Assembly: GCF_900112025.1 (NCBI RefSeq)
Contig: NZ_FOKL01000005.1
Location: 372,001 to 436,000, forward strand
Source: Janthinobacterium sp. 344
GTDB taxonomy: Bacteria; Pseudomonadota; Gammaproteobacteria; Burkholderiales; Burkholderiaceae_D
DNA length: 64,000 nucleotides
Direction of reading: 5' to 3'
Made by a program: the position numbers and the translations under genes. The notes beneath the pieces are model-generated. The model was not told the DNA's origin, did not search any database, and worked only from the letters and a program-made list of their open reading frames with translations. This document shows, one piece after another, positions 18,403 through 22,189 of this stretch. Position 1 is the first letter of the stretch, and every line of letters begins with the position of its first letter.

Positions 18403-18485
18403 GCGGATGTGGTGGAATTGGTAGACACGCTGGTCTTAGAAGCCAGTGCTTCGGCTTGGGAGTTCGAGTCTCCCCATCCGCACCA
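18403..18485 (+). tRNA. tRNA-Leu (anticodon UAG)
   Basis: A complete 83-base gene: acceptor GCGGATG pairs with CATCCGC, followed by encoded ACCA. The D-loop contains AATTGGTAGAC, and the anticodon loop is CTTAGAA with UAG at positions 34-36. It has the long variable arm of class II tRNAs (GCTTCGGC) and a TTCGAGT T-loop. In related genomes a leucine tRNA commonly lies next to tig; here a minus-strand peptide/HExxH pair stands between them. Confidence 0.97.
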
Positions 18486-18546
18486 ATCCGGGTTGTTCCA
18501 GCCCGGACGTGCAGCACCATCAAGATTTTCTTTGCACTACTATTCC

Positions 18547-20061
18547 TCAGCCCAGCGCGCCCAGTGCGGCCAGTTGCCGGCTCGACTGTTGCACCATCTG
18601 CGCAATCATTGCCTGCGCCTGCGGGTAGCCCGTTCTTTCCATCCATGATACATCCTGTGCCACGGGCAATAGCGCCTGCAGCACGTATTGTCGCGTCTGC
18701 GGCCAGTCCTGTTCCTGCGGTGGCGTCGATGGCGGCATTTCCTTGTCCAGCAGATACAGTGCCGCGCGCGCCGCCGCCAGCTCCTGTTGCGCCTGCAATG
18801 CCAGCGTCTCGCCGGATGGGGGCGGTTGCTGCGCGAGGAATGTGTCGAGCTTGCGGCTCTGGCGTTCATACAGGTCGAGCAGCAGGTGGACGGTGGCGCC
18901 GGCTGGCCGCCGTTGCATATCGAGTTCGTCCAGCACGGCCAGCAGCCAGTGCGTCAGCTGTCGCCCGGCCAGGCCCAGCTCCGGCCACGTGGTCGCCAGC
19001 AATTGTTCGCCCAGGTAGCGGGCCCGGTCGATGGCGCGCCGGCTGCCGCTCATGTTGTTGCCGATGGGGCCATACAGGGGCGCCAGCGCCGCTTCATGGC
19101 GCTCCGCCAGCAGGCACAGCAAGGCCAGGTGCACGTACACGTGGAAGGCGGCCAGCACGCGGTGGGCATCCCAGTAGTGATTGCCCTCATCATCGGGGGC
19201 GTTCCACAGTGAACAGACTTTCGCGCCGTCGTCGCGCGCATAGTCAGGCGCCAGCAGGCTGTGGCCATGGCGGAAGTCGTACAGCTTCTGGTGCAGCGCC
19301 TCGTGCAGCAGGTGCTCGGCCAGCCACCAGGGGTTGCCGATCAGCTCCTGGTTCAGGAACACGCTGCCATTGACGCGAAACTGCGAGCTGGAGGCCTTGC
19401 CGCGCCACGTGCCCAGCTTGGGAAACAGGGCGATCAATTGCACGTGCGACAGGGCGCTGGCGCACAACCGGGGCAGCAGAGTATCGAGCAGGCGCAAGCC
19501 GCGGCGCAGCAGGGCGCGCTCATGCGGTGTGGGCGTGGCCAGCGGGGCGCCGTAGTTGTCTTCCATCACGGCAAGGAAGGCGGTGGCATACGGCGTGCCC
19601 CGGTGCCACGCATGCCATATGTAAGTGTCGCCGTCCGGCGGCGGGTGCGCGTCGTGCAGGCGCGCCATGTCCGGCAAGTGCGCCGTCAGGGGGCCGCCGG
19701 GCAGGTCGGCGCGCAGATGCGCTTCGGCGGCCTGGAACAGCGCCGCGCACTGGGGCAGGGGCAAGCCATACTCGTCGCCCAGATGCCGCTGCCGCATGGC
19801 GTGCTGTACGGCGCAGCGCAACACGGTGTCGCCCACCAGCTGGTGCTGGCGCGCGGGTGGCGCCGCGTCCAGCAGGCTGGCCAGCCGTTCCGCCTCGGGC
19901 AGGGTGCTGCCCAGCTTGTGCAGGCGCCGCCGGTAGGCGACGGCCAGCTGGTCGCGGATGTAGTTGCTGTCGCCAAAAGCGCGGTGGCGTACCAGCGCCG
20001 TTTCCACGGCGTCGAGCACATCCAATCCGGGCGGCGTGGCCCGCAGCAGAAATGCCGCCAT
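18547..20061 (-). CDS. HExxH-motif protein, probable alpha-ketoglutarate-type peptide beta-hydroxylase
   Basis: A 504-residue soluble protein. A clear metal site HEALH lies at residues 253-257 in NPWWLAEHLLHEALHQKLYD. About 45 residues on comes WDAHRVLAAFHVYVHLALL (H300, H307, H311), which could give a third ligand. A HExxH followed at this distance by a His-bearing helix, without other protease features, fits the HEXXH-domain family (TIGR04267). Characterised members of that family are 2-oxoglutarate-dependent peptide beta-hydroxylases in RiPP pathways. The rest is helical, with a Gln/Ala-rich C-terminus. GAGG lies 5 bases before the ATG, and the stop of a 60-residue peptide gene lies 7 bases upstream. 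A zinc protease is the alternative. The family call is from motif layout only. Confidence 0.65.
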   Translation of the reverse strand: MAAFLLRATPPGLDVLDAVETALVRHRAFGDSNYIRDQLAVAYRRRLHKLGSTLPEAERLASLLDAAPPARQHQLVGDTVLRCAVQHAMRQRHLGDEYGLPLPQCAALFQAAEAHLRADLPGGPLTAHLPDMARLHDAHPPPDGDTYIWHAWHRGTPYATAFLAVMEDNYGAPLATPTPHERALLRRGLRLLDTLLPRLCASALSHVQLIALFPKLGTWRGKASSSQFRVNGSVFLNQELIGNPWWLAEHLLHEALHQKLYDFRHGHSLLAPDYARDDGAKVCSLWNAPDDEGNHYWDAHRVLAAFHVYVHLALLCLLAERHEAALAPLYGPIGNNMSGSRRAIDRARYLGEQLLATTWPELGLAGRQLTHWLLAVLDELDMQRRPAGATVHLLLDLYERQSRKLDTFLAQQPPPSGETLALQAQQELAAARAALYLLDKEMPPSTPPQEQDWPQTRQYVLQALLPVAQDVSWMERTGYPQAQAMIAQMVQQSSRQLAALGALG

Positions 20062-20068
20062 CGCCGCC

Positions 20069-20251
20069 TCAGGCGACGGTCGGGTGGTCGTGGTCGTGGT
20101 GGCCGTCGCCCTTCATGCGCAATTCCATTTCATCGACTTCCGTCTGGATTTTTTGCAGATCGTCATCGGTGACGCCGTCGAGCAGGCGGCTGAGGACCAT
20201 TTGCAGCTTGGCTTTGGCGTTGCTGGAAGTGCCGGGTGCGCTGTCGCTCAT
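20069..20251 (-). CDS. 60-residue peptide, candidate substrate/precursor of the HExxH enzyme
   Basis: MSDSAPGTSSNAKAK opens a 60-residue ORF. The middle is a predicted amphipathic helix (LQMVLSRLLDGVTDDDLQKI, about 17-36), followed by an acidic stretch and a short C-terminal tail, GDGHHDHDHPTVA (48-60). It has a GGGAGA site before the ATG and ends 7 bases before the HExxH gene, so the two are almost certainly co-translated. The helical leader followed by a Gly and a low-complexity His/Asp tail is the layout of a RiPP precursor. HHDHDH would be the obvious place for hydroxylation or metal binding. This role is inference. A small regulatory partner of the enzyme is equally open. Confidence 0.6.
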   Translation of the reverse strand: MSDSAPGTSSNAKAKLQMVLSRLLDGVTDDDLQKIQTEVDEMELRMKGDGHHDHDHPTVA

Positions 20252-20564
20252 GATGTTTTCTCCCTTAAATTCACTTGGAGAGGCATACGGGGACTTAGGT
20301 TTGCCTGAAAAATGGCCAAATTGAGGCAAATCAAAGGTTTTTTGGCCGAAATCTTCGCCAAGAGCGCATTTCTTTGTTTCGGACGGAGCGACAGTTCGCA
20401 TATACTAATGTACGAAGCAGGCTGGAAAGCCTGTCTCTGGCGAATGAAGAATGCCGGGGCAAGAGTAAAGACAGGGCAGCGCCAGGCTGCGGCGACTCGT
20501 TCGCCGCCGCTGGCATCCTCTGTGGTCGGGCTGCAAAGCCAGCCACTTCTCCGAAGTCCTTTGT

Positions 20565-20851: not shown

Positions 20852-22189
20852 ATGGCAACTGCAGTCGAAACCTTGGGCAAACTCGAACGTCGTATCACGA
20901 TCTCCTTCCCGCTGACGGACGTCCGCACGGAAGTTGAGAAGCGCCTGAAAGTGCAAGCCCGTACGGCTAAGGCACCGGGCTTCCGTCCGGGCAAAGTGCC
21001 GTTGAAAATGGTCGCAGCACAATACGGCTACCAGATCGAATCCGAAGTGCTGAACGACAAAGTCGGCCGCGCTTTCAACGACGCCGCCAACGAAAACAAC
21101 CTGCGCGTCGCCGGTTTCCCGAACATCGTACCGAAAGAAGCAGCCGAAGGCCAGCTGGCTTTCGACGCCACCTTCGAAGTGTATCCGGAAGTCGTCATCG
21201 GCGACCTGACGGCCGTTGAAATCGAAACCGTGCAAGCCGACGTGTCGGAAGCCGAAATCGACAAGACCATCGACATCCTGCGCAAGCAGCGCGTGCATTT
21301 CCACACCAAGGGCGAAGCTGGCGAACACGGCGACGGCGGCGAGCCGATCGCTGCGAACGGCGACCGCGTGACCGTCGACTTCGTCGGCTCGATCGACGGC
21401 GTTGAATTCCCAGGCGGCAAAGCTGAAGGCTACGCTTTCGTGCTGGGCGAAGGCCGCATGCTGCCAGAATTCGAAGCCGCGACCCTGGGCCTGAAAGTGG
21501 GCGAGTCGAAGACTTTCCCATTGTCGTTCCCTGAGGACTACCATGGCAAGGACGTGGCCGGCAAAACCGCCTCGTTCACCATCACGCTGCAAAAGCTGGA
21601 ATGGGCGCACCTGCCGGAAGTCGATGCCGAATTCGCCAAGTCGCTGGGCGTTGCCGATGGCGACCTGGCCAAAATGCGCGAAGACATCAAAGTCAACCTG
21701 CAGCGCGAAGTCGCTGGCCGCGTGAAGGCACGCAACAAGGAAGCCGTCATGGACGCGCTGATCAAAGTTGCTGAGCTGGAAGTGCCAAAGACCCTGATCG
21801 CTCAGGATTCCGAGCGCCTGGCTGAAATGACCCGCCAGGACATGGCGCAGCGCGGCATGAACGTCAAGGATGTGCCTTTCCCAGCAGAACTGTTCGCGGA
21901 AAAAGCCGAGCGTCGCGTACGCCTGGGCCTGATCCTGTCGCAGCTGGTGGGCGACAACAACCTGCAGGCGACGCCTGAGCAAGTCAAGGCGCAGATCGAA
22001 GATTTCGCCCAAAGCTACGAAGATCCACGCGAAGTGCTGAAGTACTACTACAGCGACCGTCGTCGCCTGGGTGAGATCGAAGCCCTTGTATTGGAAGAAA
22101 ACGTCGTCACTTACGTGTTGGGCCTGTCGAAAGTCACGACGAAAGCAGTTGCTTTCGACGAACTGATGGGAAGCAACGCACAAGCGTAA
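20852..22189 (+). CDS. tig: Trigger factor
   Basis: A 445-residue ribosome-associated chaperone and prolyl isomerase. The ribosome-binding signature PGFRPGKVP lies near residue 42. The FKBP-like domain follows ([16 protein letters not shown] at about 170), then the helical substrate-binding C-domain. I start it at the ATG at 20852 ([14 protein letters not shown]), which matches the family start. An in-frame extension of 26 codons upstream is rich in Phe/Ser and has no family counterpart. It leads the conserved tig-clpP-clpX-lon cluster. Confidence 0.96.

Follow-up and report, generated by a model that had tools for sequence, protein, structure and literature searches.

Peptide hydroxylases with an HExxH motif that depend on alpha-ketoglutarate (alpha-KG) have been described from several pathways for ribosomally synthesized and post-translationally modified peptides (RiPPs). 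ChlB, whose HExxH domain is fused to a radical SAM domain, is reported to add hydroxyl groups to Asp and His residues of its peptide (PMC12636437). The same paper reports that PflC and PosC, from the pfl and pos clusters of Pseudomonas, hydroxylate runs of Gln and cut their peptides at ARMD, and that PflC hydrolyses a leaderless peptide. PesO (nitrilobacillin), which acts on Pro, and BipH (biphenomycin) are RiPP hydroxylases of the same alpha-KG-HExxH family and belong to many-gene clusters, as described in PMC13060819 and PMC12707348. The subject of this work is a pair of adjacent genes, encoding a 60-residue peptide with a His/Asp-rich tail and a 504-residue HExxH enzyme, in the soil bacterium Janthinobacterium sp. 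344 (contig NZ_FOKL01000005.1, positions 372,001–436,000; this stretch of 64,000 nucleotides (nt) is hereafter the window).

The Janthinobacterium pair resembles the PflC/PosC systems in that a stand-alone alpha-KG-HExxH enzyme, apparently leader-guided, is preceded by a small precursor gene, in a cluster without a protease gene. It differs from them in its substrate and partners: the pfl and pos clusters combine a Gln run and ARMD core with a nitrile-hydratase-like (NHLP) leader and with GNAT and MNIO-nitroreductase partners, whereas the Janthinobacterium peptide ends in GHHDHDHPTVA (residues 50–60), lacks a Gln/ARMD core, and—like the other precursors, nine in all—gives no NHLP leader match in Pfam and NCBIfam at E up to 1. 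Unlike ChlB, the Janthinobacterium enzyme stands alone and carries an extra C-terminal part (about residues 385–504). Unlike PesO and BipH, it has no many-gene cluster around it. Bufferins (PMC12452194) are copper-binding peptides whose Cys residues are modified by an MNIO enzyme; the 60-residue peptide contains no Cys. Judging from sequence comparison and a predicted structure, we think it probable that the pair encodes a RiPP precursor and a leader-guided, Fe/alpha-KG-dependent beta-hydroxylase acting on His/Asp, the two genes standing alone in Janthinobacterium. On this view the pair would be an alpha-KG-HExxH RiPP system with a different putative substrate tail, rather than a new kind of system. 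The preliminary description of this DNA is confirmed for the open reading frames (ORFs), their spacing, the ribosome site, the HEALH motif and the tail:

20069–20251, minus strand: precursor-like peptide, 60 residues (MSDSAPG...GHHDHDHPTVA); from its sequence, its conserved place before the enzyme gene in Janthinobacterium, and a ratio of nonsynonymous to synonymous substitution (dN/dS) of 0.21
20105–20251, minus strand: proposed leader, peptide residues 1–49, including VTDDDLQKIQTEVDEME; from alignment A3
20084–20101, minus strand: codons of the tail HHDHDH, residues 51–56, the proposed core; from the sequence and the tail dN/dS (below)
20260–20264, minus strand: GGGAG, resembling a ribosome-binding site, 8 nt 5' of the peptide ATG; from the sequence
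18547–20061, minus strand: predicted alpha-KG-HExxH type peptide hydroxylase, 504 residues; from TIGR04267, the structural model and its fold match
19291–19305, minus strand: HEALH motif, residues 253–257, with H253 and H257 as proposed Fe ligands; from invariance
19141–19143, minus strand: codon of H307 (in FHVYVH), a possible third metal ligand; invariant in 15 of 15 alignment rows

The peptide gene lies upstream, separated from the enzyme gene by 7 bases (20062–20068). A fusion of the two products by frameshifting was considered and discarded: the relative frame varies by strain, being the same in L009 and L010 and another in L002.

The sole meaningful NCBIfam match to the enzyme, at 36.2 bits and E 5.7e-9, is TIGR04267 ('aKG-HExxH-type peptide beta-hydroxylase'), the type named in the preliminary description; Pfam returns nothing convincing. 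A genome-wide search with TIGR04267 gives the enzyme 39.5 bits, or 40.5 with its frame neighbours, and finds no second copy in its own genome. All 15 aligned enzyme homologues match the model (E up to 0.01), and in the 15-row alignment H253, E254, H257, R301, H307, Y309 and R346 are invariant (residues 300–311 read HRVLAAFHVYVH). The invariant HExxH motif and downstream residues may be taken as family-defining. Searches of the PDB by sequence were near-empty (profile A1, nothing; profile A2, 8S5F at E 0.22), and therefore the weight rests on the fold match. An AlphaFold2 model built from 15 sequences (predicted local distance difference test score, pLDDT, 87.4; predicted template modelling score, pTM, 0.90) has as its best structural match the HExxH domain of ChlB, an alpha-KG dependent oxygenase (8S5F_A; VIA Z 25.3, 304 aligned residues, root-mean-square deviation 3.5, 17% identity), the likeness including HE..HQKLY around the motif. 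The second match is SjiH-Ni (22OB, Z 22.4), and the remaining structural rows have Z 6.9 or less.

These results bear on the idea of a common zinc protease paired with a peptide that inhibits it or serves as its antitoxin, which would suit both an HExxH motif and a small gene directly upstream. The zinc peptidases 4l7a, 3c37 and 5lhd, however, reach a Z of about 4 against the model, as opposed to 25.3 for the oxygenase; TIGR04267 is matched throughout the 15 aligned homologues, and some relatives lie in RiPP-type clusters (below). We hold this idea to be very improbable, and reject a zinc protease identity on the predicted fold: the structure check proposed in the preliminary description yields the fold of the ChlB HExxH oxygenase, not that of a plain protease.

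From TIGR04267, the fold match and the invariant residues we infer that the enzyme uses Fe and alpha-KG. As a RiPP hydroxylase, it would most likely act as follows: (i) the first ~49 residues of the peptide would dock on the enzyme as a leader and guide the tail in, (ii) the HExxH histidines and a further ligand—H307, at a guess—would bind Fe(II), and (iii) with alpha-KG and O2, the enzyme would beta-hydroxylate His and/or Asp of the C-terminal HHDHDH. In several relatives, (iv) an enzyme of O-methyltransferase fold, either fused or, in Streptomyces, bearing a leader-like N-terminus, would probably modify the same peptide further. Hydroxylation of His/Asp is plausible because ChlB acts on Asp and His, PflC/PosC on Gln, and PesO on Pro. 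It is our guess that (v) the product may bind metal, because non-ribosomal metallophores use beta-hydroxy-Asp and beta-hydroxy-His to chelate (PMC12971057).

Pooled over 12 Janthinobacterium sequences, dN/dS comes to 0.21 for the peptide as a whole, 0.24 for the leader part and 0.07 for the tail; the degraded G146 sequence, L011, was excluded, and L014 escaped the search pattern. Silent changes are present in the tail codons for His, Asp and Pro. Selection thus maintains the tail. The stretch VTDDDLQKIQTEVDEME recurs in loose form in distant precursors (alignment A3), and residues 1–49 may well serve as a leader. A loose His/Asp filter passes seven precursor types, against a background of 8 of 982 ORFs (40–150 residues, 16 loci); the filter was set after the precursors were known and is a yardstick rather than a blind test, a ninth hit being the L079 precursor itself. 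Gene pairing and tail are above chance.

The enzyme occurs in 18 of 40 Janthinobacterium genomes: 16 copies are full length, that of G267 lacks the first ~170 residues, and that of G1314 is a fragment (no peptide was found in its 2-kb locus). Fifteen of the 16 full-length enzymes are preceded by a peptide with HHDHDHPT plus two residues; 13 of these peptides end in Ala and two in Glu (PTVE, PTLE). The exception, G146 (L134), has a tail-less relative of the peptide, ending HPAPA, and an enzyme in which HEALH is retained but the later motif reads FHAYVH. Of 12 comparisons made with its peptide, dN exceeds dS in three, roughly equals it in one and is lower in eight; its enzyme has a dN/dS of 0.33–0.41 (three comparisons), whereas two matched pairs give 0.16 and 0.25. 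In G267 (L135) the truncated enzyme reads HESPH and the peptide tail is shortened to HHDHPTVA. Together, G146 and G267 suggest that peptide and enzyme may decay together.

The nature of the last residue also bears on a second possibility, namely that the main activity is not hydroxylation alone but oxidative cleavage of the peptide backbone, of the kind seen with PflC and PosC at ARMD, or its hydrolysis, so that the tail is released or trimmed. PflC and PosC, of the same family, both hydroxylate and cut, PflC acting as a peptidase on a leaderless substrate, and the terminal Ala of 13 of the 15 full-tailed peptides would fit. Yet PosC is reported to cut before Ala, partly before Gly, and to fail with Gln, Ser and Val there (PMC12636437), whereas two of the genus peptides end in Glu and the distant precursors carry no conserved Ala/Gly after the core. 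We consider cutting as the main activity improbable.

Relatives outside the genus were surveyed at 14 nearer loci (L015 excluded): six have a His/Asp-rich upstream peptide, four carry one whose conserved core is of Cys/Tyr type (two loci from Spongiactinospora, one each from Nonomuraea and Actinoallomurus), and four have neither (L032, L033, L037 and L038). The six His/Asp tails range from Paraburkholderia to Streptomyces and differ in sequence while being alike in make-up: GHDHDTQGGVGHHDH in Paraburkholderia, HHHDTAEHHDH in a Sphingomonadaceae metagenome-assembled genome (MAG), GHHHHDDE in Actinomadura, DDHDHDH in Streptomyces olivoverticillatus, GGHHHHHDDDE in Streptomyces xanthophaeus and DDDHCHHH in Streptomyces G864. 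In the enzyme tree, from which the gene remnant L037 was kept out, the His/Asp group forms one clade (support 100/100, 13 rows, including L032) and the Cys/Tyr group a separate one (support 100/100); as the tree is midpoint-rooted with long outgroup branches, we call the two groups neighbours, not sisters. The His/Asp clade has seven members outside the genus, of which six have a His/Asp-rich tail upstream. The preliminary description had asked whether such a peptide always precedes the enzyme; it does so in these six of seven and in 15 of the 16 full-length genus members, but 'always' fails on L032.

Further modification genes are found near some of these enzymes. In the Cys/Tyr clade a lantibiotic dehydratase lies beside L017 and L034 (two of the four members) and a LanC-like gene beside L017; L035 was not among the loci scanned for lanthipeptide-type genes, and the next gene at L036 encodes a beta-propeller protein. 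Close to the Paraburkholderia member, a gene matches the RiPP radical SAM C-methyltransferase model TIGR03975 at 587 bits (cut-off 281.85), and the locus also holds a PhyH dioxygenase. Because lantibiotic dehydratases, a LanC-like gene and radical SAM genes lie nearby, several kin of the enzyme appear to sit in RiPP settings. The earlier statement that no radical SAM enzyme, protease or exporter is adjacent therefore holds at the Janthinobacterium locus but not for its whole kindred, since some non-genus relatives adjoin further RiPP-type genes. Similarly, the two-gene system envisaged in the preliminary description exists in Janthinobacterium but not everywhere, given relatives with methyltransferases and other RiPP genes. 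Separately, the Cys/Tyr precursors (L034:5780-5965, L035:5780-5965, L017:7756-7941 and L036:470-661) share a conserved leader, ITEAEIVESQLSEDDLRAL in L034, followed by the Cys/Tyr core. At the cyanobacterial locus L033 (7545-9525), two genes of interest lie downstream of the HExxH gene: one for a small peptide that we take to be Nif11-like, its leader being of the double-Gly type, and one for a radical SAM/SPASM protein close to DynA-type models.

The neighbouring clade also informs a third possibility: that the His/Asp peptide is a metal-delivering or regulatory partner and the real substrate of the enzyme lies elsewhere. The wording of the tail varies while its make-up persists, no downstream export gene is seen, and the tail is of the general kind of His-rich tails that bind metal, all of which a partner could explain. 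A Cys/Tyr-core peptide at the same upstream position in the neighbouring clade, at two of four loci by lantibiotic dehydratases, fits a substrate and not an iron chaperone, however, and two Streptomyces have a second enzyme that also bears a stretch resembling the leader. We accord this possibility a poor chance.

That second enzyme is a methyltransferase. Methyltransferase genes are fused to or divergently adjacent to the enzyme gene at four of the six non-genus His/Asp loci: fused to the enzyme C-terminus in Paraburkholderia (Methyltransf_24, 24.6 bits, below the cut-off of 26.3) and in the Sphingomonadaceae MAG (36 bits), and divergently adjacent in S. xanthophaeus (L016:6746-7438, minus strand) and S. 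olivoverticillatus (L031:4644-5348, minus strand). No methyltransferase was found in the 13 kb around the Streptomyces G864 locus; searches of the Actinomadura genome gave weak matches alone (best E 8.2e-8), and those of three Janthinobacterium genomes gave weak matches in two and none in the third. The modelled S. olivoverticillatus methyltransferase (pLDDT 74.7, with values below 50 over residues 1–24) has its best matches among O-methyltransferases (5x7f, E 3.9e-13). The first ~45 residues of both Streptomyces methyltransferases resemble the leaders of Streptomyces precursors (VTVTFDRALTAAEVEQL versus VTLEFDRELSEEEIRQL in S. olivoverticillatus): in five of six comparisons 0 of 2000 shuffles reached the observed score, and in the sixth 7 of 2000 did. 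The comparisons with the four non-Streptomyces precursors were negative, between 84 and 1609 of the 2000 shuffles reaching the score. It may be that the Streptomyces methyltransferases dock on the HExxH enzyme at the leader-binding place, and that the enzyme–methyltransferase fusion of the two Pseudomonadota does the same job as this leader-like docking.

Several observations weigh against our reading of the pair as precursor and hydroxylase. Firstly, the plain-scan TIGR04267 score of 36.2 is below the curated cut-off of 40. Secondly, hydroxylation by ChlB is reported to need a cyclophane already in the peptide (PMC12636437), while the Janthinobacterium enzyme faces a His/Asp tail and no cyclophane maker is seen beside the pair. 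Thirdly, neither an exporter nor a leader peptidase gene is seen beside the pair; one C39 peptidase gene exists, on another contig and with no tie to the pair. Fourthly, the intact clade member L032 has no His/Asp peptide nearby, nor in its assembly by precursor profile (the same profile search of the L037 assembly found no precursor either). Fifthly, the His/Asp leaders and those of the Cys/Tyr clade show no relation by hhalign (probability 2.1%, E 0.023). Finally, the intact enzyme pair L008/L010 has a dN/dS of 0.37, which weakens the case for joint decay; the remaining intact pairs give 0.11–0.21. On balance, predicted fold and comparative genomics support the preliminary description's reading of a RiPP-like peptide with a putative hydroxylase.

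If correct, this reading would make the pair close to the simplest possible RiPP system, with one peptide and one oxygenase, and would provide a clean two-gene model for how a leader gates hydroxylation versus proteolysis in the HExxH oxygenase fold. It would also make testable whether beta-hydroxy-His/Asp chelators, familiar from non-ribosomal metallophores, can occur on ribosomal peptides; the leader-like N-terminus of two Streptomyces methyltransferases suggests a testable way to recruit a second enzyme. In searches of open-access PMC papers we did not meet His/Asp-rich tails as a substrate class of stand-alone alpha-KG-HExxH enzymes, and the pair seems to represent a little-known family of peptides that are modified and may bind metal. 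A bolder version, possible though unlikely, is a family of ribosomal metallophores: one leader-guided HExxH oxygenase would convert the His/Asp tails into series of beta-hydroxy-His and beta-hydroxy-Asp residues, the family would have moved by transfer between the Pseudomonadota and the Actinomycetota, and some lineages would tether an O-methyltransferase by gene fusion or by an N-terminus resembling the precursor leader.

The distribution of the enzyme was gauged by searches at several taxonomic levels. The search of the bacterial family matched 14 of 294 genomes, 13 of them Janthinobacterium and the other a weak, broken match (L015, E 3.7e-4); the class sample matched one of 369 genomes, namely the own genome. 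Among Streptomycetaceae 25 of 249 genomes matched at E up to 1e-10, with two close members (G663, G864), and among Actinomycetota two of 396 matched, both already in the set. Scanning a single genome for each species yielded 21 loci, of which Janthinobacterium accounts for 10, and a plasmid search yielded two records, S. xanthophaeus (L016) and Nonomuraea (L017, a chromosome-sized record). Carriage as phage cargo was dismissed, with no relative among viral contigs (82 pattern stretches, 0 confirmed). The Streptomycetaceae search added one new close member (L053) and 23 more distant loci, of which 11 were examined (L054–L064) and 12 left out (L065–L076); L077 is a second remnant in G864. The roughly 700 nt upstream of each of the 11 showed no His/Asp tail. 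Small upstream peptides at L058, L059, L061, L062 and L063, from another Streptomycetaceae group of HExxH proteins, have in common an ERxW-type C-terminal motif (L062: MPSQTVELPKLVSAAKTAPSITSDAQHERAWPPPYLAPAAK). At L032 (3471-5915, minus strand), from a Proteobacteria MAG, a divergent P-type ATPase gene (YHS and heavy-metal-binding domains) lies directly upstream of the His/Asp-clade HExxH gene.

The pair occupies a variable slot in Janthinobacterium, described by two further features:

18403–18485, plus strand: tRNA-Leu, one border of the variable slot; from tRNA detection and locus comparison
18525–20300, no strand assigned: approximate segment of pair-carrying strains, swapped for a short unrelated sequence in pair-less strains; borders read by eye (in 11 of the 14 pair-less strains)

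On the other flank of the pair is a gene (ATG at 20852) that we take, from its sequence, to be trigger-factor-like. Among 30 loci with this flank, 14 have both genes (including G146 and the truncated G267), 14 have neither and two are unjudged (L109, L110); by blastn, no locus has one gene without the other at this site. In eight pair-less strains the shared upstream block resumes cleanly 131–208 nt past the tRNA, and the first ~39 nt of that stretch are common to the window in closer strains. The distribution suggests repeated gain or loss at the slot, 18486–20300, by tRNA-Leu. The adjacent resistance-nodulation-division (RND) efflux genes are unlikely to be part of the system, as the RND end and tRNA-Leu are also present in 13 of the 14 pair-less strains (the 14th, L103, is at a contig edge). 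A search of the leader region for structured RNA found only the tRNA, and a promoter and terminator scan gave nothing bearing on the pair. The swapped segment has a GC content of 66.7%, versus 63.4% for the window.

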